The notes under the pieces are model-generated. The model was not told the origin of the DNA. It saw only the letters and a program-made list of their open reading frames with translations, and made no database searches. Shown piece by piece: positions 2,162-15,947 of a stretch of DNA of 39,228 nucleotides. Both the position numbers and the translations under genes were made by a program. The DNA is from Clostridia bacterium DTU084 (GTDB taxonomy: Bacteria; Bacillota; DTU084): positions 1-39,228 of the forward strand of contig LFTB01000087.1 of NCBI GenBank assembly GCA_001512905.1, in the 5' to 3' direction. Position 1 is the first letter of the stretch. Every line of letters begins with the position of its first letter.

Positions 2162-2648
2162 CTTTCCCTGAAGCTATGGCTTCCAAAATCTGCGTTGTCG
2201 AGATTCCATCTGCTCCCGGAAGCAGCTTTATTTCTCCCCCATATTTCATCACAGCCCCTGCCTCAGGCAAACTTTCCACTTTTTTGTAATCCCCGCCCTT
2301 TACATACACTTCAGGTCTGAGCGCTTCTATCAACTGACAAGCTGTAGGTTCGCTGAAGACAGTGACATAATCAACACAAGCTAGGGCTGCTATCAGTTCT
2401 GCCCGATGTCCTTGGGAAAAAATAGGCCTCGCCGGACCCTTTAATCCTTCCACCGATTCATCGCTGTTTATGCCCACCACTAAAAAATCTCCTAAACTCC
2501 TCGCTCCTTCTAAATAACGGACATGTCCCCAGTGCAGGAAATCAAAACAGCCATTTGTGAACACCATCCGCTTCCCTTGGGCTTTCTTCCGCTCAACTTC
2601 CTGGCAGAGCTGGGAAAGGGACAGAACTTTACTGTTGGCCTGGTACAT
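2151..2648 (-). CDS. rfaE2: Stand-alone RfaE2/HldE-type nucleotidyltransferase (D-glycero-beta-D-manno-heptose 1-phosphate adenylyltransferase-like)
   Basis: 165 aa; cytidylyltransferase-fold motif NGCFDFLHWGHVRYLEGAR, YVKGGDY, C-terminal GISTTQIL. Confidence 0.85.
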   Translation of the reverse strand: MYQANSKVLSLSQLCQEVERKKAQGKRMVFTNGCFDFLHWGHVRYLEGARSLGDFLVVGINSDESVEGLKGPARPIFSQGHRAELIAALACVDYVTVFSEPTACQLIEALRPEVYVKGGDYKKVESLPEAGAVMKYGGEIKLLPGADGISTTQILEAIASGKGKL

Positions 2649-4305
2649 AGCCTAACTCCTCCTCAGGTTCTGCGGCAGTTCCACTGCTGACCACCAGATT
2701 AACTACAGTCCCCATCGGCACCTCTGCTCCAGGCAGAGGGCTCTGCTCGATGACCTCTCCAGAAGGCACCTTTGCCTCTCTTTCCGTCACAGAGCCCAAC
2801 CTCAAGCCGATTCTGGCCAGCTCTAAAACAGCCTCCTGCTGCTTTTTGCCCACAAAAGCGGGCACAGTAACAGTTTGCGGCTGGGGTTCAGGCCCTTTGC
2901 TCACTACAAGATCCACGCTGCTGTTCCGCGCAAGTCGGGATCTGGAAGGAGGATTCTGCGACATGATAACACCAGCTGCCACATCATTGCTGTGCTGCTC
3001 CTGAACGACCCCTACTTTCAGGCCAGCTTGCCGCAGAAAGCGCTGAGCGTTCTCTAAAGATTGGCCAACTAGATCCGGGACAGTCAGGTATTCTGGTCCT
3101 TTGCTGACAGTCAGCCACACTGTGCGGTTTATTTTTATTTTCCTGTTGGGTGCAGGCTCTTGGCTAACCACGTGGTTCGCCGCTATCTCGGAAGAGTAAA
3201 CCTGGCTGCGGACTTCAGCTTTCAGCTTTTGCTCAGCCAATAGCTGCTCAGCTTCCTCCAAGCTGAGGCCCACAAGATCCGGCACCACCACTTCTGGCAC
3301 CTGGGGCAGGAGCTCCGGCAGCATAAAAGCTAGTGCTGCCAAGGCAAACAAAGCGATGAAGGTGCCTGCTATCCACTTGAGCCACCTGCTGCCTTTTGGA
3401 TTTCTCTTCTTTGCCTGCTCCTGGCGGTATGGGCTGACTGTTTTCAAAACAGTGGTGGCATCCTCACCCACTGCCTGCCAGCGCCTCAGATCCTGCAACA
3501 TCTCCTCTGCTGACAAATAACGTGCCTCGGGGTCTTTGTGCATGGCCTTGAGAATAATTCCCTCCAGCCATCCAGGCAGTTGGGGGTTGTGTTTGTGCGG
3601 AGGCACAGGTTCTTCTTGAATTTGCTTAAGTGCAATGGCGATGGGAGTATCACCTTCAAAGGGAAGCTTGCCTGTGACCATCTCGTAAAGCAAAACACCT
3701 AAAGAATATAGATCGCTTTGAACGCCCACCGCCTGGCCTTTAGCCTGTTCCGGTGAAAAATAATGCACTGAGCCCAAAACTATGCCTGTTTCTGTGATGC
3801 CGCTGCCGCTGGCAGCCCGGGCAATGCCGAAATCCGTTACTTTAACCCTTCCATCAGTGGTGATGAGTATATTATGAGGCTTCACATCCCGATGAACCAG
3901 GCCCCGCTCGTGTGCGTGCCGCAGCGCAAGGAGGATCTGTTCCGCAATGTTCACAACCTGGCCTGTGGAAAGCGGCGCATGCTGTACTACCACCTGCTTT
4001 AATGTTTGGCCTGGGACGTATTCCATCACAATATAGTGGGTTTCGCCATCGCGGCCCACATCGTACACATTGACAACATTCGGGTGGGATAATCTTGCTG
4101 CCGCCTGGGCTTCCCTTAGGAACCTTGTGACAAACTCTTCATCGCTTGCATATTGAGGGCGCAGAACCTTAACGGCCACAGTCCGATCTAAAAGGGTGCA
4201 TTGGGCTTTGAAGACCTGGGCCATTCCTCCTTCTCCGATCTTTTCGATTATCTTGTAACGGCCGCCTAAAACAGTTCCCTCCACGTCCGATTTCCCCTCC
4301 CTCAA
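2629..4305 (-). CDS. prkC: PASTA-domain Ser/Thr protein kinase, PrkC/PknB family
   Basis: Kinase motifs (IGEGGMAQVFKA, VHRDVKPHNIL, DFGIA, GSVHYFSPEQA), TM segment, three C-terminal PASTA-like repeats (VPDLVGLSLEEAEQLL, VPDLVGQSLENAQRFL, VPAFVGKKQQEAV). Confidence 0.95.
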   Translation of the reverse strand: MREGKSDVEGTVLGGRYKIIEKIGEGGMAQVFKAQCTLLDRTVAVKVLRPQYASDEEFVTRFLREAQAAARLSHPNVVNVYDVGRDGETHYIVMEYVPGQTLKQVVVQHAPLSTGQVVNIAEQILLALRHAHERGLVHRDVKPHNILITTDGRVKVTDFGIARAASGSGITETGIVLGSVHYFSPEQAKGQAVGVQSDLYSLGVLLYEMVTGKLPFEGDTPIAIALKQIQEEPVPPHKHNPQLPGWLEGIILKAMHKDPEARYLSAEEMLQDLRRWQAVGEDATTVLKTVSPYRQEQAKKRNPKGSRWLKWIAGTFIALFALAALAFMLPELLPQVPEVVVPDLVGLSLEEAEQLLAEQKLKAEVRSQVYSSEIAANHVVSQEPAPNRKIKINRTVWLTVSKGPEYLTVPDLVGQSLENAQRFLRQAGLKVGVVQEQHSNDVAAGVIMSQNPPSRSRLARNSSVDLVVSKGPEPQPQTVTVPAFVGKKQQEAVLELARIGLRLGSVTEREAKVPSGEVIEQSPLPGAEVPMGTVVNLVVSSGTAAEPEEELGYVPGQQ

Positions 4306-4354
4306 TTTTCAACCTTGCCAGCCGAGCTCAGGCGGAGCAAGCATTGGAGATCAA

Positions 4355-5734
4355 TCATAAATAACCATTTTTCATGGCTTCCTCAAAGACCAGCCTGGCA
4401 ATTGGCGCAGCAAATCTGCCCCCTTCGCCAGCGTTTTCGACAACCACAGCTAGCGCTAAACGGGGGTTTTCAACTGGTGCAAACCCCACAAACCAGGCAT
4501 GAGGCCTGCCGTGGGGATTATCTGCAGTGCCGGTTTTCCCTGCCACAGAGAGCCCCGGGATCCCGGCAGCCTGTCCTGTCCCCTGCTCCACAACATAGCG
4601 CAGGGCGTTCTTCAAGGAGGCAGAGACAGTTTCAAGTTCCAGCTGCCAACTGCTCTCGTTCTTCTGCAGAACCACATCGCCGGATTTAATCTCCCGGACA
4701 AGATACGGCGAACGGACTGTGCCTGAAGCCAGGGCTGCAGTCAGCATGGCCATCTGTACAGGTGTCACAAGAAGCGCTCCCTGACCGATTGCCAGTTGTG
4801 ATAGAGAGGAAGCTCCTGCTCCCTTTTGAGGCGGAATCCTGCACATACTCACAGGAACTCCAAGATCCGGCTTGCGAGCCAAGGCAAAAAATTCGATTAG
4901 CTCGTAAAACCTTTCTCTGCCCAGCCTCTGCGCCAGCTGGACAAAAGTTACGTTGCAAGATTTTGCTAACGCCTCGTCGAAGTCCAGCCGACCGTGTGCT
5001 TTCCCCTGATAACAGCTGATGGTGTGTCCATCTATTTCAATCTTCCCAGAACAAACAAATTGTTCTCCTGGTGCTACCAGCTCCCATTTTAGGACCCCGT
5101 AAGCTGTCAGGAGTTTAAAGATGGAGCCAGGAGGATACAGCCCCTGCAGGGCTCTGTTGAGAAGAGGGCTCTTTTTGTCTGCTGTCAAAAGTTCCCAGTC
5201 CTCTGCAATCCGGTTGGGTGAGAAATTGGGGCTGGTGGCAATGACCAAGATTTCCCCTGTCTGTACATCAAGGCCAACCACTGCACCAGCTCTTCCTGCC
5301 AAAGCTTTTTCTGCTGCTTCTACTAAAGACAGGTCCAAGGTGAGGTAGAGATCGGAACCTGTAGGAACAAGGCCTAAAAGCCCGCGGGTGAAATTGCGAA
5401 AGCGCTGGACAGGCAGCTGACCTAAAAGTTCACTGCTGTATGCCAGCTCCAATCCGCTCTGGCCCCTTTGAGCCTGGGTATAGCCGACAAGTGGCGCAAT
5501 GGCACGGGGCCCTTGATAAATTCTCTCTTTGTTTTCAGTAAAGCTGATTACTCTTCCCTTACGATCTAAAATTCTCCCTCGAAGGAGCTTTTCCTCCTGT
5601 TTCAACAATCTGGGATTTTCCGGCCTTATGGCGAGGCTGGGACCTGTGATGATCTGCCAATAGGAAAGGGCTAGAATTAACACCACAATCCCCAACCGGA
5701 AAAGGAAGAATGTTTTCTTAAGGTTTGCCTTCAT
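4355..5734 (-). CDS. pbpA: Class B penicillin-binding protein (PbpA/FtsI-like transpeptidase)
   Basis: Transpeptidase motifs SxxK (PPGSIFKL), SxN (KSCN), KTGTAD; N-terminal TM. Starts 4 nt inside the ftsW stop (ATGA). Confidence 0.92.
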   Translation of the reverse strand: MKANLKKTFFLFRLGIVVLILALSYWQIITGPSLAIRPENPRLLKQEEKLLRGRILDRKGRVISFTENKERIYQGPRAIAPLVGYTQAQRGQSGLELAYSSELLGQLPVQRFRNFTRGLLGLVPTGSDLYLTLDLSLVEAAEKALAGRAGAVVGLDVQTGEILVIATSPNFSPNRIAEDWELLTADKKSPLLNRALQGLYPPGSIFKLLTAYGVLKWELVAPGEQFVCSGKIEIDGHTISCYQGKAHGRLDFDEALAKSCNVTFVQLAQRLGRERFYELIEFFALARKPDLGVPVSMCRIPPQKGAGASSLSQLAIGQGALLVTPVQMAMLTAALASGTVRSPYLVREIKSGDVVLQKNESSWQLELETVSASLKNALRYVVEQGTGQAAGIPGLSVAGKTGTADNPHGRPHAWFVGFAPVENPRLALAVVVENAGEGGRFAAPIARLVFEEAMKNGYL

Positions 5735-6933
5735 AGCAGCACCCTCGGCTCATTTTGGCAGCTTGAGATGCCTAAAATCAGGCCTAAAATGAGGTAATTG
5801 CTCACAAGGGAACTCCCTCCGTAGCTGACGAAAGGAAGAGTGATCCCAGTAAGCGGAATGACTTTTATCGTCCCCCCGACAATGATCAGCGCTTGGGTGG
5901 CGAAAATGGAAACCAATCCGGCAAGCAGCAGAAAACCAAGGGGGTCTTCTTTTTGGGCAGCCAGCTGCCAGCCCCTGGCCACCAAAAAAAGAAAGCCGCA
6001 CAAAACTGCCACTGCTCCCAAAAGGCCCAACTCTTCGGCGATGGCAACGAAAATGAAATCAGTGTGTGCTGCAGGCACAAAGTGGGGATATCCTGCAGCC
6101 AGCCCCCTGCCCACAAGTCCCCCTGAGGCTAAAGCAAACAAGGCTTGCCCGATTTGGTAGCCTGTACTGGAAAGTTTATCCCAGGGATTGAGCCAGATTT
6201 CAATTCTAGTGCGGACGTGTGGAAACAGCAAAGTGGAAAGCACTGCAGCAATGCCGCAGAAAAGGAGGCTGGCTCCCACCAACATCCCTTGGCCTGTAGC
6301 CAGGTACAACATGATGGTAAAGATGCCGATCAGAAGCAGTGCTGCTCCCAAATCCCGCTGCAAAAAAAGGAGCAGCAGGGAAAGTCCCCACAAAAGCAGC
6401 ACTGGCCCTGCTGCTGGAAGGGAGAAAAACCTGCTGAAAGCCAGGGAAGCGTTTTCCTGAAGGTAGCCTGCCAGGAACAAAACCAAAAGCACCTTCACAA
6501 TTTCCACAGGCTCAAATTGCCAGCTGCCGATCCGCAGCCAGGCTTTAGCCCCGCCCACCTCTCTGCCGAAGATAATGGTGATAGCCAAAAGCAAGAGCCC
6601 TGCTGTCCCCAATAAATATTTGTAGCGCTCTACCCACCGATAACTGCGCAGCCTTGCAGACACCACAAGCACCAAAATTCCAAGTGCAATCCAGCCAAGC
6701 TGCTTGGCTGCAAGGTCCGGGTTGAGCCTGTAGATTTCCACAAAACCCACTGTAGTGAGGAAGAAAACAGCTGCCAAGAGGATTCTGTCCCGCCTGTTTA
6801 CCAAGAGCTTTGCGCCAAGATAAAAGAGGGCCAAGAGGATTGGACCGTAGAATAGCTCAACAAGAGGCCTTGCCAGGGACAAGTTAACCACTGCCACCCC
6901 AACTAGAGCTGCACAGCTTAAAGAAGTCCACAT
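5731..6933 (-). CDS. FtsW/RodA/SpoVE (SEDS) family protein
   Basis: Polytopic; SEDS motifs (LQRDLGAALLL, GLAAGYPHFVPAAHTDFIFVAIAEELG, PLTGITLPFVSYGGSSL). Confidence 0.93.
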   Translation of the reverse strand: MWTSLSCAALVGVAVVNLSLARPLVELFYGPILLALFYLGAKLLVNRRDRILLAAVFFLTTVGFVEIYRLNPDLAAKQLGWIALGILVLVVSARLRSYRWVERYKYLLGTAGLLLLAITIIFGREVGGAKAWLRIGSWQFEPVEIVKVLLVLFLAGYLQENASLAFSRFFSLPAAGPVLLLWGLSLLLLFLQRDLGAALLLIGIFTIMLYLATGQGMLVGASLLFCGIAAVLSTLLFPHVRTRIEIWLNPWDKLSSTGYQIGQALFALASGGLVGRGLAAGYPHFVPAAHTDFIFVAIAEELGLLGAVAVLCGFLFLVARGWQLAAQKEDPLGFLLLAGLVSIFATQALIIVGGTIKVIPLTGITLPFVSYGGSSLVSNYLILGLILGISSCQNEPRVLL

Positions 6934-7734
6934 CTAGCAAACACCCACAGGAGCCTGAAATTTTTCCAAGAGTTCATCCAGCTCCATTGAGAATTCGTGA
7001 TCTACAATATCTCCTTCGTGATTCTGGATCACAATCACAGTTATGTTGTCCTGGCCTCCTGCAAGGAGTGCTGCTTCCACAAGGCGATCTGCAGCCTGCT
7101 GGGGATCCGCTGCTTCTTTAAGAATTTCCTCAATTTGGCTTTTGCTCACTTTGCCGTGCAGCCCATCTGTACAGAGAAGCAAAAGGTCCCCAGCACCAAA
7201 ACCCAACTGAGACGTATCAACGTCTATCTCACTTGCCACTCCTAAAGCCTGGGTAAGGACATGACGCTGGGGATGGGTTTCTGCCTCTTCTTCTGATAAT
7301 TCCCCTTGTCTGTACAGCTCTGCAGGAAGGGAGTGATCTCTGGTCAGCTGGATGAGCTCGCCTGCGCGAAAAAGATAGGCACGGCTGTCGCCCACATGCC
7401 CGAGGATTATCCGATCCTGCCAAATGTGGGCAGCGGTCAGAGTGGTGCCCATCCCTTGATATTGAGGATTGGCGTTGGCTAACTGGCAAATTGCTTCGTT
7501 GGCCTTCTGAAAGACTTCCTCCAGCTCTTTTAGATCCACCAATTGTTTTCCAGAAAGTGCCTTAACCAGCTCTTCAATCGCCAGTTTGCTAGCTACCTCG
7601 CCAGCCAAGTGGCCGCCGAGGCCATCGGCTACAGCAAAAAGGTGTTCGCAGACGCAGTAGGAATCCTCATTCCGCTGTCTTACTTTTCCTTTATCGCTTT
7701 TGACCCCTACCTTGAGCATAACTTTCCTCCTCAA
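6934..7734 (-). CDS. prpC: PP2C-type Ser/Thr phosphatase (PrpC/Stp/PstP)
   Basis: PPM motifs VRQRNEDSYC, FAVADGLGGHLAGEVAS, GHVGDSRAYLF, LLLCTDGLHG, GGQDNITVIV. Confidence 0.95.
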   Translation of the reverse strand: MRRKVMLKVGVKSDKGKVRQRNEDSYCVCEHLFAVADGLGGHLAGEVASKLAIEELVKALSGKQLVDLKELEEVFQKANEAICQLANANPQYQGMGTTLTAAHIWQDRIILGHVGDSRAYLFRAGELIQLTRDHSLPAELYRQGELSEEEAETHPQRHVLTQALGVASEIDVDTSQLGFGAGDLLLLCTDGLHGKVSKSQIEEILKEAADPQQAADRLVEAALLAGGQDNITVIVIQNHEGDIVDHEFSMELDELLEKFQAPVGVC

Positions 7735-8177
7735 TTAGCAGAACGCTCTTTTTCCGGCTGCAAGCTCAACTGTGTTGTCCCGATCATGATCTTTGTCCCA
7801 GGCTTTATTTCCACAGGTGTCCTTTTGGGCAGCGGCGTGCCAGCTACAAGGGTGCCGAAGGAAGTGTCCAGTTCCTCCACGAACACTTTCTCACCTTTCC
7901 GCCACAGGCGCAGATGTCTGTCTGAACAGTACGGATCATTTAAGCAGATGTCGTTACTGCTGCTGCGGCCAACTGTCAGCTGAGTTATCAGCTTGTAGCT
8001 GTGGCTTTCCGAAGGCTCGCTCAGGTCCGTCACCACCAGAACCAAACCATCACCTTCAGCATCGAGCAGACCACTGGTCACTTTCAGAAGCTGCCACAAA
8101 AACCTGTAGAGCAAAAAGAGAAAGAAATAGCGCCCGATTGTAATCAGCAAATTCAACAAGGCTGCTAATCGTTCCAC
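7731..8177 (-). CDS. Membrane-anchored FHA-domain protein (FhaB/FipA-like)
   Basis: N-terminal TM then C-terminal FHA domain (LTVGRSSSNDICLNDPYCSDRHLRL...); downstream of an FhaA-like gene. Confidence 0.85.
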   Translation of the reverse strand: MERLAALLNLLITIGRYFFLFLLYRFLWQLLKVTSGLLDAEGDGLVLVVTDLSEPSESHSYKLITQLTVGRSSSNDICLNDPYCSDRHLRLWRKGEKVFVEELDTSFGTLVAGTPLPKRTPVEIKPGTKIMIGTTQLSLQPEKERSAN

Positions 8178-8893
8178 GACTCCACGCTCTCCCAGGCAAT
8201 TATGCTCTCACCAACTGCGATCAAATCTCCCAGCTTGAGCTTTTCCTGCTGTACTTTTTGGCTGTTGAGGTATGTGCCATTGGTGCTGCCCAGATCTGTT
8301 AAGTAAAATTCCTCAGCCCGCTGTTCTATTTTAGCGTGTTCCCTCGACACGTTCTGGTCAGTCAGGCACAGGCCGCCACTGACTGCCCTGCCTATGTACA
8401 GGACCTCTCCCTGCCAAGGGACAACCTTGCCCCGGTCAGGGCCCTCAAGAACTCGCAATTGAAAGGAAGGTTTCAAGGCTTTTCTGCTCCACCGCTTGGT
8501 GTCGTCAGATTCTTCAGGTTCCTCCTGCTTTTTAAAAGCAACGGCAACAACTTTCCATTTTCCCGATTCGATTTCGGGATTAGGCTCGATTTCCACCTTA
8601 AAGGGGCCAACTACGCTATAGCCACGATCTGCAGCCTTTCTAGCTAAGGTTTGCTCCCACTCCTGGGAAAGGGCGCTTAAAAGGTGCGCCAGCTCTTGGT
8701 ATTCTTCTTGTGCGATCTGAACCTGGAAAAGGTTGGGAACGTATAAGTTCTCCACCCCTCGCCTTGCCTCCTGCTGCATGGTGCGGATAAGAGAACGGGC
8801 CAAAGACAAAGGCTCCAGCTTTCCCCTATTTCGCTGAAAGAGCCCTTCAGACAGTTTCCCTATGGCGTCTTCAAGCCTTTCCATGATGTTCAT
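8165..8893 (-). CDS. FhaA-like protein: DUF3662 N-terminus plus C-terminal FHA domain
   Basis: True start likely ATG at 8893 (MNIMERLEDAIGKLSEGLFQRNRGKLEPLSLARSLIRTMQ = DUF3662); FHA signature YIGRAVSGGLCLTDQNVSREHAKI...DLGSTNGTYLN. Confidence 0.9.
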   Translation of the reverse strand: MNIMERLEDAIGKLSEGLFQRNRGKLEPLSLARSLIRTMQQEARRGVENLYVPNLFQVQIAQEEYQELAHLLSALSQEWEQTLARKAADRGYSVVGPFKVEIEPNPEIESGKWKVVAVAFKKQEEPEESDDTKRWSRKALKPSFQLRVLEGPDRGKVVPWQGEVLYIGRAVSGGLCLTDQNVSREHAKIEQRAEEFYLTDLGSTNGTYLNSQKVQQEKLKLGDLIAVGESIIAWESVESWND

Positions 8894-9905
8894 GCCTCTC
8901 TCTCCTTCCCCGAAGCTGACCGCAGGCAGCTGCAACATCCCTGCCCATACTTGCCCGGACAGAAACTGCAATGTTCTGTGCTGAAAGCTGCTGGGCAAAA
9001 GTGCGGAGCTTTTGGATACTGGCTGGCCTGTAAGAGATTCCCTCCACAGGATTGAGCTGGATTAGATTCAGGTGACATGGCCAGCCCCGTAATAGCTGCA
9101 CAAGGGCTGCGAAATCCCCTTTCCCATCGTTTACCCCCTCGATTAAGGCATATTCCAAGGTCACTCTTCTTCCTGTAATGGCTGCATATTCCCTGCAGGC
9201 AGGAATAAGCTCGGTCAGGGGATATTTATCGTTTATCGGCATCAGCCTGCTGCGCAGAGAATCGGTTGCAGCGTGAAGGGACACTGCCAGCACAAGCTGC
9301 AATCTCAATTGGCCAAGGTGCCTGATCTGAGGCACAAGGCCGCAGGTTGAAATGGTGATCTGCCGCATGCCGATGTTCCGGCCCTGTGGATGATTTAGGA
9401 TCCTTATAGAGTGGATCGTGTTTTCGTAATTTGCCAAAGGCTCGCCCATGCCCATGAAAACGAGATTGGTTGCACTTCTTCCGGCTTTTCTCTCTGCCAG
9501 GCGCACCTGTTCTGCGATCTCGCCTGCAGAAAGCTGTCTTGTAAAACCGCTCTGCCCAGTTGCACAAAAGCCGCAGCCCATAGCGCAACCCACCTGGGTT
9601 GAGAGGCAGATGGTGAGGCGCTTGTTTTGCGGCAGAATCACAGTTTCAACCAGGGCACCGTCTGCCCAGCGGATCAAAAGCTTCTCAGAACCGTCTTTGG
9701 AGGTGTGGGCAGCTTCAACAGTGCCAAATTGAAGGTGCGGCGCTATAATTTTTTTGAGCCGCTGGGGCAGGTTTGTCATTTGGGCGACATCATCAGCTCC
9801 CTGTTTGTGCAGCCAGCTGAAAACCTGCTGTGCCCTATATTTTGGCTCGCCCAGCTCAACAAGCCACTTTTCGAGCTCGCCGGGCAGCATGCTTTTCAGA
9901 TCCAG
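8871..9905 (-). CDS. rlmN: Dual-specificity 23S rRNA A2503 / tRNA A37 methyltransferase RlmN
   Basis: Radical SAM CxxxCxxC (GCAMGCGFC), GMGEPLANYENT. The ORF track starts at 9890 (MLPGEL); upstream in-frame codons from CTG at 9905 give (L)DLKSMLPGEL, with AGGAGG 9 nt ahead of the CTG. Confidence 0.93.
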   Translation of the reverse strand: MDLKSMLPGELEKWLVELGEPKYRAQQVFSWLHKQGADDVAQMTNLPQRLKKIIAPHLQFGTVEAAHTSKDGSEKLLIRWADGALVETVILPQNKRLTICLSTQVGCAMGCGFCATGQSGFTRQLSAGEIAEQVRLAERKAGRSATNLVFMGMGEPLANYENTIHSIRILNHPQGRNIGMRQITISTCGLVPQIRHLGQLRLQLVLAVSLHAATDSLRSRLMPINDKYPLTELIPACREYAAITGRRVTLEYALIEGVNDGKGDFAALVQLLRGWPCHLNLIQLNPVEGISYRPASIQKLRTFAQQLSAQNIAVSVRASMGRDVAAACGQLRGRRERHEHHGKA

Positions 9906-9957: not shown

Positions 9958-10992
9958 TTAATAAACCAAGAGCAGAAGCAGGGGCACTGCAACAGCGCCG
10001 AAAGCCAGGGCCAACTTATTCATTTTTTCGTTCTGAGCTCGCTGCATGGCAAGCTGATTCTGCTGGCTTTCGATTTTAGCTTGAAAGATCTTCAGGTCTT
10101 CCTCTAGCCGCTTCAGCTGCAGCTTGGTTTCTTCCTCCTGCTCCTGGATTTTTTTCTCAGTGCTGCGGAGTGTCGAAGAGATAGAAGCTAGATCCAGCTG
10201 CAGCTGGTTAACGTTCTGGTATAATGCCGCTTCTGTTGTTTCCAGCTGTCCGCCTAATTGCTTGCTCCGCTCTTCAACAGCCCGGATGAATCCCTCAAGC
10301 TCCTGGGCCTGCCTGCGCAAAGCATCTGCCCGCTCTTCCAGTTCCGAAAGAAGTTCCCCCTGTCTTTGAAAGGTTGCCTCTGTGATTTTCATTGCTTGAG
10401 AGATTTGCTCTTGTACCAGTTCCAATTGACTCTGGTTGGCAGCCAATTCTTTCTGGAATTCAGCCCTTGAAGCCTCGATTTCCCCTGCCAAATTCTGTGA
10501 ATTCAACTCAAGTTCCTTGAGGCTGGCTTGAAAAGCACCATAGCTTGAATCAATGGCTGCGATATTCTGCTCCAGTTCTTCCAGTTTCTGATAAGTTTCT
10601 GTAATTTCTGCTGCCAATTTCTGGCTTTGGGCGGTTATTGCCACCAATTCATCTTGAGCGATTGCCGAGGCTCCTTCCAGCCGTTCTAAAGACTCCTGGA
10701 ATTGCTTGGCCTGAGAAACCATTTTGGCTACCTCGCCCTGCAGTTGGACAGTAAGGTTTCGCAAAAGTTCCTCTTTTGCTTCTGGAGTGTTTGCTTGGAT
10801 TTCAGCAAGGAGCTTTGCAATTGCGTTTGCGAAAGTCTTGCGGTCTACCGGCTCGTTTTCAGCGAGATCGCCATCAGCCATGGCCGGCAGGTATCCTGCG
10901 TCAATGAGCTTCTCTAGATTAGCATTGGGATTTGCCGAGATGGATACACAAATGCTAAAGCAGAGAATGAAAACCAAGAGATTAGCTCTCAC
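9958..10992 (-). CDS. Secreted SLH-like / long coiled-coil / C-terminal transmembrane protein (Omp-alpha-like architecture)
   Basis: GTG start at 10992 preceded by AAGGGGGAG; signal peptide; SLH-like LEKLIDAGYLPAMADGDLAENEPVDRKTFANAIAKLL; heptad-like E/Q/L/A-rich coil; terminal hydrophobic segment LALAFGAVAVPLLLLLVY. Confidence 0.7.
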   Translation of the reverse strand: MRANLLVFILCFSICVSISANPNANLEKLIDAGYLPAMADGDLAENEPVDRKTFANAIAKLLAEIQANTPEAKEELLRNLTVQLQGEVAKMVSQAKQFQESLERLEGASAIAQDELVAITAQSQKLAAEITETYQKLEELEQNIAAIDSSYGAFQASLKELELNSQNLAGEIEASRAEFQKELAANQSQLELVQEQISQAMKITEATFQRQGELLSELEERADALRRQAQELEGFIRAVEERSKQLGGQLETTEAALYQNVNQLQLDLASISSTLRSTEKKIQEQEEETKLQLKRLEEDLKIFQAKIESQQNQLAMQRAQNEKMNKLALAFGAVAVPLLLLLVY

Positions 10993-12904
10993 TGTTCTCC
11001 CCCTTAACCTCGAGCCCATGGCGGATTTCCGGAAGAGCAGATGGTGCTTCCGGAATAATCCTGATCTCCCCTGCCCCTTCGGCCAAAGCCTCGAAGTTCA
11101 ATATTGCCAGGGTCTCCTTCACTAGATCTCGCAGCTCTGCCTGCGAGCTTATTCGGACCCTTCCTGGTCCTTCTTCCTTCCAGGTGAAGGAGTCAGGCCT
11201 TGCCGCTGTGCCACGCCAGACGCTGACGAGCCTTACAAAGTCTGGGTATGAAATCACAAGGGAATATTCATCCAGCTGTGGAACGTTCTGCGCCCAAATT
11301 TCAACGCTGAAAGTACTGTTTTTTGCAACCTCTGCCTTTCTTTGTGCTGTGAAAAGCCTCGGTTTAAGCCCTGGGTAAGAAAAGGTGCCTGTGTGCTGCT
11401 GGCTGCGACCGTGATACCTTGCTGTGACCTGAAACCTGCCTATACCGCCACCGAAGCCATGAGGTGCAAAATACCAGACGAAATCAAAGCTCTCCTGCGG
11501 GTTTAAGGTGCCGATGTATTTGTAGTTGTCGTAAGGAAGGGCAAGGCTTAATGCTTCGGTTTCCCCGCAGACCAATTCAACAACAGTTGCGCTGTCGCCT
11601 GTGTTTTTCACAGTCACCTTCACTGGAAAAATCCTGATTTCAGAAGTCGGATCCTCTGCCAGGAACCAGCGTTCATTGTGTTTTGTTATGTTGGGGAGAA
11701 CAAAACTCACATCGATCCTGGGAGGACCAATGATGATCACTTTTCTGCTCACGCTCACAGGCTCGCAATTGTCTCCTCCCACAGTTACCTGAAAGCTGCT
11801 GCCGCTTTGGGCGGTTTCCCTGGCAACTACGACCCATTCAACTGTCCGCGCCTGCCCGCCGCCAATCTCTCCCAAATTCCGCTCCTGCTGGCTGGCTTCA
11901 AAGCCAGGCGGAAGCTGAAGTCTCACCCAGCTGTTTGCAACTGGGGTTTGCTCTTTGTTTTCGATATAGGCAACTACTTTGAAGGGTTCTCTGCGGATAA
12001 CCTCTCTGGGCGAAGTTACCCCCAAGCTCAAGCGCCCTCTGCTGATGGTTACACCGCCCAAACCATATTGGGTGCAGTACTGCCTTGTTTCTCCAGGCGC
12101 AAGGCTGCCTTCCCAAAAGAGGGCAAAGGCAGTATCAGGCTCGTCCTCACCTTTCCTGATAAACCCTGCTGTTGGATCAACGCTTACTTTCCAGCTTTTA
12201 TCTGCCAAAGTCCCCCAGTTGGCAATCAATACTTCGCTGGGAGGAGTCAGCGAACCGCCTCTTAAGGTGCCCTGAGCAATAACCCGCGGCTCTTGAAGGT
12301 TGTCGAAGGCCTGCCAGAAGTCCGGAATCAAATTGCCCCTGAGCGCTGTTTCAGTTGTAATCACTCTGTTGCCCAAGCGAATTGGCGCACCGTCTTCTTC
12401 CCCAAGCTTAGTGTCCAAAAGGAGCCGCACGCCAACGCTGTGAGCTGCACTACCTTTATTTTTGAGGAAATATTGAATTTGCAGGGCATCCTCAAGGCCT
12501 GTGGTACTTGTGCGGGCGAAAGATAGAACCTGGGTAACTTCGATGTCGCCAATTTGATAGATGGTATAAATGGCATTTCCTCGCCTCTCGGGGCCTGAGA
12601 TGTGTTCACCCGAAGGCAGATCAAAGCCAGCCCTGGTTTGGGTGGGGCCGCCAAAGACGTAGTCTGTGCCGTCTATACGGATGGTGGTATAAGAGCTCCA
12701 CGGATCTGCGCCGCCGAAGAGGAGCTCTGCATTGTCATCATCAGCCCTGGCAGGATCTCCGCCTGTTGTCTGAAGGGTAAAGCGGCCTGTATCGTAAGGC
12801 CCAGGATTGACGATCACTTTAATGTACTCGTTCTCGAGTACAGCAGCAAAGGAGCTGCTGAACAATAACAAGCAAAAGGTGAGCAGGGGGAAAAACTTTC
12901 TCAT
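10982..12904 (-). CDS. Large secreted protein with N-terminal beta-rich domain, CARDB-like middle and cohesin-like C-terminus
   Basis: Signal peptide MRKFFPLLTFCLLLFSSSFAA; internal repeats of bacterial Ig/CARDB style (NKEQTPVANSWVRLQLPPGF, VKNTGDSATVVELVCGE); C-terminal cohesin-like AEVAKNSTFSVEIWAQNVPQLDEYSLVISYP. Confidence 0.6.
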   Translation of the reverse strand: MRKFFPLLTFCLLLFSSSFAAVLENEYIKVIVNPGPYDTGRFTLQTTGGDPARADDDNAELLFGGADPWSSYTTIRIDGTDYVFGGPTQTRAGFDLPSGEHISGPERRGNAIYTIYQIGDIEVTQVLSFARTSTTGLEDALQIQYFLKNKGSAAHSVGVRLLLDTKLGEEDGAPIRLGNRVITTETALRGNLIPDFWQAFDNLQEPRVIAQGTLRGGSLTPPSEVLIANWGTLADKSWKVSVDPTAGFIRKGEDEPDTAFALFWEGSLAPGETRQYCTQYGLGGVTISRGRLSLGVTSPREVIRREPFKVVAYIENKEQTPVANSWVRLQLPPGFEASQQERNLGEIGGGQARTVEWVVVARETAQSGSSFQVTVGGDNCEPVSVSRKVIIIGPPRIDVSFVLPNITKHNERWFLAEDPTSEIRIFPVKVTVKNTGDSATVVELVCGETEALSLALPYDNYKYIGTLNPQESFDFVWYFAPHGFGGGIGRFQVTARYHGRSQQHTGTFSYPGLKPRLFTAQRKAEVAKNSTFSVEIWAQNVPQLDEYSLVISYPDFVRLVSVWRGTAARPDSFTWKEEGPGRVRISSQAELRDLVKETLAILNFEALAEGAGEIRIIPEAPSALPEIRHGLEVKGENSES

Positions 12905-12941
12905 TCATTTCACCAACTGAATATGGTATTTGTCAGGGCAG

Positions 12942-13823
12942 TTAATTTACAATCTGAAAAGTCATTTGCCCCTGATTGTTCCGAGGATAAAAGTTGAACT
13001 CTATCTTCAACCGATATGGTTTGTTGAGGCCTGCAAATTCTTTCCTTAGCTTCTCAAGTTCTCCCATAAATTCTTTCTCAGCAATACTGACAGCATCTTT
13101 CTCAGCCCTACTTGCAGGATTTGGTTTTGGAAGGGGCTGGACGATTGTATACGAACCATTCGGCCTGAATTCAACCACTGTAGATAAAGTCAGGGGACGA
13201 GGGTGGTTCGTCAAGTTTTTTGAACTGCTGATGATTTTAGGTCCTGGCAGAGACGGGCCGCGGCCACCTCCGCTGCCTGCACTAGTTCCCCCATCGGAAC
13301 TTCCACTTGATCCGCTGTGCCCCGCACCGCGGTCTCCACTTCCTTGAGCAGGAGCTGGAAGCTGCGGTGTTCCGCCTTCCTGCTGGCTGGCAGTAGAAGG
13401 GCTGGACTGGATGGGATCAGTCGGAGCAACTTTGTGCGCCGGCGGAGAAGTGCTCTGCTGCGGTGCCTCAGGCACAACAAGCACCTGCGCTAGCTCTGTT
13501 GTGCTTGTAGGGGTTTCTTCTGTTGGCATAGCCACTTCTTCACTGCTGGGCAGATTTTCCTTTTGGGAGGATGCAGCTGTGGTGGTGCTTGGAGGAGATA
13601 TAGACTGGGTTTGCGGCAGGGAGATGGGAACCGGAGGCTGCTCTGCTGCCAAACCCTCACCACCGAAACCAGCACCTCCCATTTCCACAAGCTCAATAAC
13701 GCGCCTTCCAGGCGCCTCCCCTCCCCCGGGAGAAAGAAGGGGAATCAGCAAGATTAAAAAATGTAGCAAACAGGAGATAAAAAGCCAAAGCGGCGAACCC
13801 CTGTATTTTGCTGAATCCAACAT
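12942..13823 (-). CDS. TonB/TolA-like energy-transducing protein with divergent C-terminus
   Basis: Single N-terminal TM (SPLWLFISCLLHFLILLIPLLSPGG), P/S/T/G-rich low-complexity linker, small C-terminal domain; immediately downstream of ExbB and ExbD homologs. No canonical TonB C-terminal motif seen. Confidence 0.6.
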   Translation of the reverse strand: MLDSAKYRGSPLWLFISCLLHFLILLIPLLSPGGGEAPGRRVIELVEMGGAGFGGEGLAAEQPPVPISLPQTQSISPPSTTTAASSQKENLPSSEEVAMPTEETPTSTTELAQVLVVPEAPQQSTSPPAHKVAPTDPIQSSPSTASQQEGGTPQLPAPAQGSGDRGAGHSGSSGSSDGGTSAGSGGGRGPSLPGPKIISSSKNLTNHPRPLTLSTVVEFRPNGSYTIVQPLPKPNPASRAEKDAVSIAEKEFMGELEKLRKEFAGLNKPYRLKIEFNFYPRNNQGQMTFQIVN

Positions 13824-13835
13824 AAAACTACCCCT

Positions 13836-14246
13836 CTAGTACGAGCTTTCAAGAGGCTGCACTGCCAAAGCAACTTGCGTGCCACCTGCAAGCCTCGCCC
13901 TGTCTAGTACCTTTACCAGGTCATCATATTGAATTGTCCGATCCGCCTGCACAATGAATCTGCTTTGGGGATTTTCCTGCAGCTGCATTTTTATCATGGA
14001 CTCGAGTTCTGCCAGGGCTATTGGCTGGCCCTGCCAGTACAGCTGCCGGTCAGCGTCAACAGAAATGATAAAGTCCTCAACGGCAGTGGCTTCCCCGGTT
14101 TCAGCTTGGGGAAGCTTTACATCCATGCCTTTCTGCTGAGAATGGAAAGTTGTAAAGAGCATGAAGAAAATCAGCATGAAAAACATGATGTCTATGGCAT
14201 TAGTGATCTCTAACCGCGGCTGTTGTCGCGGAACTTGGATATTCAT
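13836..14246 (-). CDS. exbD: ExbD/TolR family biopolymer transport protein
   Basis: RLEITNAIDIMFFMLIFFMLFTTF TM motif, then VKLPQAETGEA...IQADRTIQYDDLVKVLDRARLAGGTQVALAV. Preferred start ATG at 14246 (ORF track GTG at 14255). Confidence 0.93.
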   Translation of the reverse strand: MNIQVPRQQPRLEITNAIDIMFFMLIFFMLFTTFHSQQKGMDVKLPQAETGEATAVEDFIISVDADRQLYWQGQPIALAELESMIKMQLQENPQSRFIVQADRTIQYDDLVKVLDRARLAGGTQVALAVQPLESSY

Positions 14247-14913
14247 GCTCGTCACCTCGCTTTGTCTTGAGGACTCTCAGAAACTCATCTCCCCAGCGGT
14301 TGAGCTCGCTGACGTTTCTCTCCACAAGAGTGTTGAGATAGGTATAGCATAACAGAGCAGGAATGGCTACAATCAAGCCTGCAGCTGTAGTGATTAACGC
14401 TTCTGCAATGCCGACACTGAGCCTGAGAGGATCCGTAGCACCAGCCAAGGCGTTGAGCACGTTGAAACTATTGATAATACCGGTTACAGTCCCCAGTAAT
14501 CCCAGCATGGGAGCGATGGTTATGATCACACTTAAAATGGGGAAGTGCTGCCGCATCCGGTCCACTTCCTGCCTGCCCTGCGATTCCATAGCCTCTTCAA
14601 CAGAATCTAAAACCTCTTGTTCAGAGGGATTGTCCACATCAAAGCGCCAATTGCCGCCAGTTATGGTTAAAAACTCTGCAAAACCGGCTGCAATAACTTT
14701 TTCCACAGGAGTATCTGCTTCATCTATGAGAGAGGAAGCCTCCACCCATCTTCCCTGGCCCATGGCCCAGGCCAATCTTCTCAGGAAGCCAGAAGGATCT
14801 TTTCTGCTTCGCAAAAGGAAAAACAGCCTTTCCAAAACGATCGCCAGGGCGAGCACAGAACAAAATAAAATTGGCCACATTACCGGCCCACCCTTGAGAA
14901 AAGTCTGCCACAC
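14200..14913 (-). CDS. exbB: ExbB/TolQ/MotA family proton channel protein
   Basis: LLGLLGTVTGIINSFNVL and EALITTAAGLIVAIPALLCYTYL conserved segments; GTG start with AGGAGGGG RBS. Confidence 0.95.
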   Translation of the reverse strand: MWQTFLKGGPVMWPILFCSVLALAIVLERLFFLLRSRKDPSGFLRRLAWAMGQGRWVEASSLIDEADTPVEKVIAAGFAEFLTITGGNWRFDVDNPSEQEVLDSVEEAMESQGRQEVDRMRQHFPILSVIITIAPMLGLLGTVTGIINSFNVLNALAGATDPLRLSVGIAEALITTAAGLIVAIPALLCYTYLNTLVERNVSELNRWGDEFLRVLKTKRGDEHEYPSSATTAAVRDH

Positions 14914-15134: not shown

Positions 15135-15211
15135 CGGGGCGTAGCGCAGCTTGGTAGCGCGCACGGTTCGGGACCGTGAGGCCCCGGGTTCAAATCCCGG
15201 CGCCCCGACCA
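15135..15211 (+). tRNA. tRNA-Pro (anticodon CGG)
   Basis: 77 nt cloverleaf: acceptor CGGGGCG/CGCCCCG, D stem GCGC/GCGC, anticodon stem CACGG/CCGTG with loop TTCGGGA, T arm CCGGG TTCAAAT CCCGG, encoded CCA. Confidence 0.97.
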
Positions 15212-15269: not shown

Positions 15270-15947
15270 GTGCGCACCTATTTGGAATTGCTTTATGAGT
15301 TTTTAAACGCCATCGGCGTGATTTCCTTTGCAATCTCCGGAGCCATCACTGCGCTGAAAAAGAAGATGGATCTCATCGGCATTTTCCTTTTGGCCTTCTT
15401 AACTTCTTTCGGCGGCGGACTGCTCCGGGACCTGATTATCGGCCGCATTCCTCCCTCATTTTTGGAGAACACCCTCTACTTATTCATAGTCGTCATCGTA
15501 ACCACTTTCGCCACTATTTTCGTCAGCCATATTCTGAAGCACATGTACATCCTTACCATCTTCGATACCATGGGCCTCGGCATTTTCACCGCCATAGGCA
15601 CCTTTGAGGGTTTTCTGGCAGACTTCAATTTTGCTGGCTGCATTCTCACCGGCTTTCTCACTGCCACTGCCGGCGGCATGCTCAGAGACATTTTTGCAGC
15701 AGAAATCCCCGCCGTCCTCAGGCGGGGAATTGGTCTGTATGCCACAGCTGCCATTTGCGGAGCAGTTGTCCTTACTTTCCTGTTGAAAGCCGGGATGCCT
15801 GCAGATTGGGCAATGCTCCTGTGCGTGATTATTGTCGCTGCTGTGAGATTCATTTCCATCCTCAAAAACTTGGAGCTGCCGGAAGTCCCCTATCCTGCTC
15901 CACCCTCAGCTGACCCTTTTCAGAAGCGCAAAGAAAAATCCGTCTAA
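15270..15947 (+). CDS. TRIC / UPF0126 family membrane protein
   Basis: Two repeats of the family: FLNAIGVISFAISGAITALKKKMDLIGIFLLAFLTSFGGGLLRD and IFDTMGLGIFTAIGT...GFLTATAGGMLRDIFAAEIPAVL; GTG start. Confidence 0.9.
   Translation: MRTYLELLYEFLNAIGVISFAISGAITALKKKMDLIGIFLLAFLTSFGGGLLRDLIIGRIPPSFLENTLYLFIVVIVTTFATIFVSHILKHMYILTIFDTMGLGIFTAIGTFEGFLADFNFAGCILTGFLTATAGGMLRDIFAAEIPAVLRRGIGLYATAAICGAVVLTFLLKAGMPADWAMLLCVIIVAAVRFISILKNLELPEVPYPAPPSADPFQKRKEKSV

Follow-up and report, generated by a model that had tools for sequence, protein, structure and literature searches.

Envelope tasks of many kinds are powered by motors of the ExbBD family (PMC12204202). The same 2025 survey of force transducers found Tol-Pal in Gracilicutes only, described the SHLS/His motif of TonB/TolA, recognised Negativicutes as the only diderm Firmicutes with detectable Ton systems, judged the complete Ton sets of Clostridia to be probably non-functional, and expected further outer-membrane-stabilising systems to be revealed (PMC12204202). 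Atypical diderms are reported to lack pal and tolB (PMC8871954). Thermotoga Omp-alpha (OmpA1) joins an N-terminal SLH domain to a long coiled coil and ~20 hydrophobic C-terminal residues (PMC3387000), and OmpM of Negativicutes, Halanaerobiales and Limnochordia has an SLH domain that faces the wall in diderm Bacillota (PMC5007114, PMC10628300). For Halothermothrix orenii, a 2009 report describes chromosomal genes for ExbB, ExbD and TonB lying together, with no detectable receptors and possibly a different function (PMC2626281). Here we analyse a 39,228-nucleotide (nt) stretch, contig LFTB01000087.1 positions 1-39,228 (the window, whose coordinates are used throughout), which carries a cassette of five genes for ExbB, ExbD, a TonB-type transducer, an exported all-beta protein of 640 amino acids (aa) that we call sec640, and a protein with an SLH-like segment, a coiled coil and a C-terminal helix.

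We read this cassette as a self-contained outer-membrane force-transduction system that is driven by the proton motive force (pmf) and works like Tol-Pal from different outer parts in Halanaerobiales, Limnochordia and related lineages, a reading to which we give a probability of roughly one half because the physical interactions, the location of the C-terminal tail and the phenotype are ones that we infer. As the cassette recurs in Bacillota that bear an outer membrane and usually occurs without a TonB receptor, it looks like an unstudied counterpart of Tol-Pal, the system bracing that membrane. The original prediction had likewise proposed a pmf-driven envelope machine, which agrees with conserved motor residues and with two exported proteins that are obligate motor neighbours in dozens of lineages, and it had placed five same-strand genes at 9958-14913, exactly where we find all five open reading frames (ORFs) on the minus strand, from 14913 down to 9958:

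14200-14913, minus: exbB/tolQ-type proton-channel subunit, 237 aa, GTG start (Pfam, NCBIfam, residue alignment)
13836-14255, minus: exbD/tolR-type subunit, 139 aa (Pfam, conserved Asp)
12942-13823, minus: TonB/TolA-type transducer, 293 aa, with N-terminal transmembrane (TM) helix, P/S/T/G-rich linker and folded C-terminal domain (relatives, TM motif)
13761-13775, minus: SxxxH motor-docking motif (S17-H21) in the TM helix of the TonB-like protein (alignment of relatives)
12951-13238, minus: alpha-beta-beta-alpha-beta-beta C-terminal domain of the TonB-like protein, residues 196-291 (AlphaFold2)
10982-12904, minus: sec640, with signal peptide, conserved head of ~280 aa, two Ig-like domains and cohesin-type C-terminal domain (AlphaFold2, profiles)
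12005-12844, minus: conserved head domain of sec640, residues 21-300 (positional conservation)
9958-11019, minus: SLH-like/coiled-coil/C-terminal hydrophobic-helix protein, 353 aa, in the position of pal (homology and synteny with relatives)
10795-10917, minus: degenerate SLH-like segment of the 353-aa protein, GYLP..DG...EPVDR.TFA..IA.LL (alignment to relatives)
9964-10020, minus: C-terminal hydrophobic helix of the 353-aa protein, residues 334-352, with almost nothing beyond (Kyte-Doolittle)

The genes are spaced as in an operon, with two overlaps (56 and 38 nt), two gaps (12 and 37 nt) and AGGAGG ahead of the exbB GTG; promoter and terminator scans stayed at chance level.

Surveying relatives revealed that the five genes travel together. 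A first search of 61 genomes found sec640 in 15, mostly with exbD upstream and a coiled-coil gene downstream, and scanning contigs with the sec640 alignment yielded 204 relatives, of which the best 80 were retained. The titles of these 80 are all Bacillota-type or unclassified bacterial, and they include the isolates Halanaerobacter jeridensis, Orenia metallireducens, Halonatronum saccharophilum, Halanaerobium saccharolyticum and Candidatus Frackibacter (all Halanaerobiales) as well as Limnochordia and unclassified metagenome-assembled genomes (MAGs). Counting for each gene only loci with enough flanking DNA, exbB and exbD were present in 67/67 loci, the SLH gene in 70/72 and tonB in 66/67, the single miss being the window's sister genome, which does have tonB in a diverged form. 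The complete five-gene order occurred in 58 of the 61 evaluable loci, such that the arrangement is not due to chance, and because the genes further out differ between loci (rsmB/rlmN; a sigF-like gene, PHP and spoVAC-spoVAD; or Gate-domain pairs and PHP) the five genes constitute a unit. Co-conservation in relatives, which the original prediction had offered as a test, is therefore what the gene-neighbourhood survey found.

This distribution also bears on whether the cassette is an artefact, a contaminant or the vestige of a Gram-negative fragment gained by horizontal transfer, as has been suggested for Ton genes in clostridial genomes (PMC12204202). The window does come from a fragmented assembly (144 contigs, 86.5% complete), yet the same cassette is found in isolates and dozens of independent MAGs, the sec640 tree recovers the Halanaerobiales as one clade (100/100), window composition is uniform, and the window's own genome (hereafter the host) has LpxC and Omp85, so that we hold this explanation to be vanishingly improbable. 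Misassembly or contamination in particular was rejected on composition, host Omp85 and LpxC, the Halanaerobiales clade and the conserved order in 58/61 loci; fusion to a Gram-negative fragment, which the original prediction had named as a way to be wrong, is excluded by the identical architecture in the Halanaerobacter, Orenia, Halonatronum and Halanaerobium isolates.

The host is an LPS (lipopolysaccharide)-diderm member of the Bacillota and no monoderm clostridium, as its contig C34 encodes Omp85 (6.7e-37) and LpxC (1.6e-94), and, within a 741-aa frame, a further SLH protein. The diderm or layered envelope that had been allowed for at the outset is thus borne out, and RemA, YugP (a YugP-type Zn_peptidase_2) and DUF116 were all correctly recognised, whereas the apparently clostridial affiliation does not stand; nor is the gene set unexpected in this host, since in diderm Bacillota it is the rule and receptor-less ExbB-ExbD-TonB was already known from Halothermothrix orenii. 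Across the 61 genomes, the 14 with Omp85 are precisely those with ExbD; 13 of these carry full-length sec640 and the other (G030) has its ExbD beside a TonB receptor, and LpxC occurs in the host and 10 other cassette genomes. One cassette genome that is 98% complete and has Omp85 (G036) gave no detectable LpxC and possibly has an outer membrane without LPS. Widening the survey to 349 genomes of the phylum placed full-length sec640 in 77, all Omp85-positive, and in 0 of 258 Omp85-negative genomes (Fisher 2e-63, uncorrected for relatedness). ExbD lies within 4 kb of sec640 in 72 of the 77, and in the other five it either escaped detection or was placed on a different contig of a fragmented assembly. 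The remaining 14 of the 349 genomes have an Omp85 match and no cassette; most of them have receptor-linked ExbD, and they would be Negativicutes-like.

Turning to the motor, the window ExbB matches Pfam MotA_ExbB (1.5e-33) and its partner Pfam ExbD (3.3e-32), and these domains, together with the pore threonines and the TM aspartate, place the pair in the ExbBD/TolQR motor superfamily. Equivalents of E. coli ExbB T148, E176 and T181 are kept in the window; T148 and T181 are kept in every aligned ExbB while E176 varies in some Halanaerobiales, and the proton-carrying Asp (E. coli ExbD D25) is kept in every aligned ExbD. Against NCBIfam, the window ExbB scored higher with TolQ (120.1 bits, cut-off 221) than with ExbB (64 bits, cut-off 206), both sub-threshold, and the window ExbD reached 66.1 bits on the TolR equivalog against a cut-off of 127.3.

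Evidence for the transducer comes from the family. A single N-terminal TM helix with an S-x3-H motif, as in TonB/TolA transducers, is present, with S17 and H21 invariant in 36/36 relatives, and the C-terminal domain is of TonB_C type at the family level, where Pfam TonB_C is found in 35/36 relatives (the sole exception being the window protein) and the family profile finds TonB domains of solved structure (2e-13). The window protein gave no confident family by its own sequence and no Pfam TonB_C match; its C-terminal domain (residues 196-291) is modelled by AlphaFold2 with a predicted local distance difference test score (pLDDT) of ~85-97 as alpha-beta-beta-alpha-beta-beta, and Foldseek with the mostly disordered model gave nothing but unrelated folds (E > 0.05), its top 50 containing no TonB. 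Because TonB is missing from both its Pfam matches and its top Foldseek matches, the window domain is diverged, and with a mostly disordered model its identification depends on synteny, the SxxxH helix and the relatives. The proposal that the 293-aa protein is of TonB/TolA type is in this way upheld by relatives and TM motif.

A cassette of this kind could simply power Ton-type import. The receptors would then be encoded elsewhere and might have diverged beyond detection; sec640 would be an accessory that binds glycans or nutrients, and the SLH rod would serve as a scaffold. The TonB_C domain of the relatives is indeed the canonical TonB type, and a TonB-dependent receptor (TBDR) plug is present in 25 of the 77 cassette genomes, ~11 of which have no second ExbD beside the plug; moreover, the cohesin-, NEW3- and CARDB-type domains of sec640 are common in extracellular carbohydrate-active proteins. 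However, the plug went undetected in the host and in 52/77 cassette genomes although controls were detected, and the cassette ExbD, the only ExbD found in the host, never lies beside a plug. The original prediction had seen no TBDR at the locus, and there is none in the host genome or beside any cassette. Where cassette genomes carry more than one ExbD (15 genomes), the extra copy lies within 4.2 kb of a plug in 14, which indicates that receptors have their own motor. Pure import also predicts no obligate linkage to an SLH rod, and we therefore consider import unlikely as the cassette's role. In the ExbB tree the TBDR-linked ExbBs fall largely into separate clades; there is no single cassette clade (4 label changes versus 1), and one cassette ExbB (L062) falls among the TBDR-linked ones.

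The fourth protein, sec640, is all-beta (AlphaFold2 pLDDT 90.7), and conservation is concentrated in its head, where 86/281 positions are at least 90% identical versus 22/336 in the rest of the protein (37 sequences). NEW3, CARDB and Cohesin matches occur across the family, and a PDB profile search found the cohesin-type C-terminal domain; the window sec640 alone gave weak NEW3 and cohesin matches only, and Foldseek with the whole protein returned generic Ig-type multidomain matches (integrins, macroglobulins; TM score ~0.2). In Omp85-negative genomes the partial matches to sec640 are mostly head domains inside very large surface proteins, one of which (L028, 9571-16308) is a 2245-aa protein that ends in SLH repeats. 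Such proteins, the multi-Ig architecture of sec640 and the diversity of tasks served by ExbBD-family motors (PMC12204202) would suit a pmf-driven export, assembly or surface machine handling S-layer, surface glycan, lipid or adhesin, in which sec640 is moved or displayed and the SLH protein anchors it to the wall. We regard this as rather improbable, as no exporter, secretin or glycosyltransferase genes are constant cassette neighbours and the SLH protein, rod-like with a short tail, is unlike a surface protein.

In relatives, the fifth protein has one SLH motif (Pfam, 33/36), a coiled coil that differs widely in length and a hydrophobic helix that ends 0-8 residues from the C-terminus, with total lengths of 200-840 aa, such that the Omp-alpha-type combination of SLH, coiled coil and C-terminal hydrophobic helix is present at the family level and the window's SLH is degenerate. 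The window 353-aa protein alone gave no Pfam SLH match, no confident family and coiled-coil noise only; it is homologous to and syntenic with the relatives' SLH proteins, and its SLH-like segment aligns to GYLAVYEDGTFQG..PVDRYTLA of relatives with the HWAY and RY hallmarks missing. Its tail helix reaches a Kyte-Doolittle maximum of 2.78 over 17 residues and is shared by the relatives; hydrophobicity did not assign the tail to the inner or the outer membrane. The joint degeneration of TonB_C and SLH in the window's own family (G000, G001/UBA5473; L030) suggests co-evolution of transducer and tether.

Comparison with the described systems shows where the cassette agrees and departs. E. coli has the operon order tolQ-tolR-tolA-tolB-pal, and the cassette shares with Tol-Pal the motor classes, an SxxxH-type transducer and the gene order by role, with an exported beta protein fourth (the TolB position) and a predicted wall-binding tether fifth (the Pal position). 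Unlike Tol-Pal, it has no TolB propeller, Pal lipoprotein or OmpA domain, its transducer domain is of TonB_C type, and its ExbB and ExbD score under the TolQ/TolR cut-offs. TolB_N was found in 0/61 genomes, and Pal (TIGR02802) exceeded its cut-off in 0/61, the weaker matches, which occur in B. subtilis too, probably being other OmpA-domain proteins; this agrees with the report on atypical diderms (PMC8871954). With the Ton system it shares ExbB, ExbD and a TonB with a TonB_C domain (at the family level), but it lacks an adjacent receptor, has two extra obligate exported proteins, and belongs to lineages whose receptors usually own their ExbBD. Because defining features of each system were sought and are missing here, we class the cassette as pmf-driven force transduction of TonB/TolA type that is neither Tol-Pal nor Ton. 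Its rod shares the domain order of Thermotoga Omp-alpha, a likeness of architecture, and differs in being encoded with a pmf motor and in its family length range; with OmpM it shares an SLH domain and diderm Bacillota as bearers, but it has one helix after the coiled coil in place of a C-terminal porin barrel, and it is tied to ExbBD-TonB. What was already known is the receptor-less ExbB-ExbD-TonB set; the passages found in that report mention neither sec640, the SLH rod and the five-gene unit nor its distribution (PMC2626281). A search of the openly readable literature found no description of the five-gene unit.

In the mechanism that we propose, ExbB-ExbD would form a proton-driven motor in the inner membrane, on which the TonB/TolA-type protein would dock via the SxxxH face of its TM helix while reaching across the periplasm. 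Its C-terminal domain would then pull or relocate a complex of sec640 and the SLH rod, the two exported proteins plausibly being the motor's load, and the rod would bridge peptidoglycan and a membrane, most likely the outer one, as proposed for Thermotoga Omp-alpha. As output, the outer membrane would be actively held, positioned or constricted against the wall, for instance at division. The genes that adjoin the window cassette (rlmN-FHA-PP2C-FtsW/RodA-PBP-PASTA kinase; PBP, penicillin-binding protein) and the cell-wall hydrolase gene that follows the cassette in Halanaerobiales support this reading. Gene content and order, motor residues, the strict tie to an outer membrane, the separation from receptors and the lack of TolB and Pal are shown by the sequences, and the mechanism is what we propose on top of them. 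Several points weigh against it, beyond the inferred interactions, localisation and phenotype of the proteins: the window ExbB and ExbD fall short of the TolQ/TolR equivalog cut-offs; sec640 has an Ig-like architecture, lacks a beta-propeller and does not match TolB in fold; in the window's own family both the SLH and the TonB_C signature are degenerate; the tail could sit in the inner membrane (hydrophobicity 2.21 versus 2.48 for the TonB TM helix); lengths of TonB linker and rod show no co-variation (rho 0.07), though this would be expected if both span one gap; and in the ~11 cassette genomes with a plug and no neighbouring second ExbD (e.g. G026, G141, G154, G167, G242) the cassette motor might also serve receptors.

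More tentatively, the cassette may represent a third kind of pmf-driven system at the outer membrane, alongside Ton and Tol-Pal. This motor-driven tether based on an SLH rod ("Tol-SLH") would have been built independently on a TonB-type motor and handed down from early in the Bacillota, and it would serve diderm Halanaerobiales and Limnochordia as Tol-Pal serves Gracilicutes. Being strictly linked to the outer membrane, independent of receptors and present in cultivated Halanaerobiales, it is a concrete candidate for the expected outer-membrane-stabilising systems. Through it one can test how terrabacterial diderms power and brace the outer membrane, and it has a bearing on whether pmf-driven outer-membrane tethering had more than one origin and on what diderm-to-monoderm transitions lose.

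Gene neighbourhoods in relatives raise a further alternative, in which diderm spore formers would use the machine to remodel peptidoglycan in connection with sporulation or engulfment. A cell-wall hydrolase gene (Hydrolase_2) follows the cassette in 7/7 Halanaerobiales loci inspected (L056, L063, L072, L081, L090, L095, L109), directly in six and after one intervening gene in L063; it is likely a sixth cassette member in Halanaerobiales and, as a peptidoglycan-remodelling neighbour, offers an analogy to CpoB of Tol-Pal. In many MAG loci (e.g. L031, 5489-14874) the cassette has a sigF-like sigma factor/PHP gene on one side and spoVAC-spoVAD on the other, and in Halanaerobacter (L081) it is preceded by PHP and two Gate-domain genes (SpmA/SpmB-like), such that a link to sporulation is possible judging from gene neighbourhoods. 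Yet neighbourhoods vary and include non-sporulation contexts such as the window, the strict correlate found is the outer membrane, and Halanaerobium, which is generally not spore-forming, keeps the cassette (L095, L109). We accordingly give the sporulation explanation very little credence.

In the window itself the cassette is flanked by rsmB and rlmN, as the original prediction had it, with the amendment that two further genes sit between rsmB and exbB:

15135-15211: tRNA-Pro
15270-15947, plus (opposite to the cassette): UPF0126/glycine-transporter-like gene

On the other side, the region next to rlmN (2629-8998) holds two FHA genes, one of them of FhaA type, together with genes for PP2C, FtsW/RodA, a PBP transpeptidase and a PASTA kinase, which make up a cell-wall control block adjoining the cassette, and FhaA_N recalls actinobacterial gene clusters. 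The sister genome (L030) has a same-size, opposite-strand ORF at the position of the window's UPF0126/glycine-transporter-like gene.

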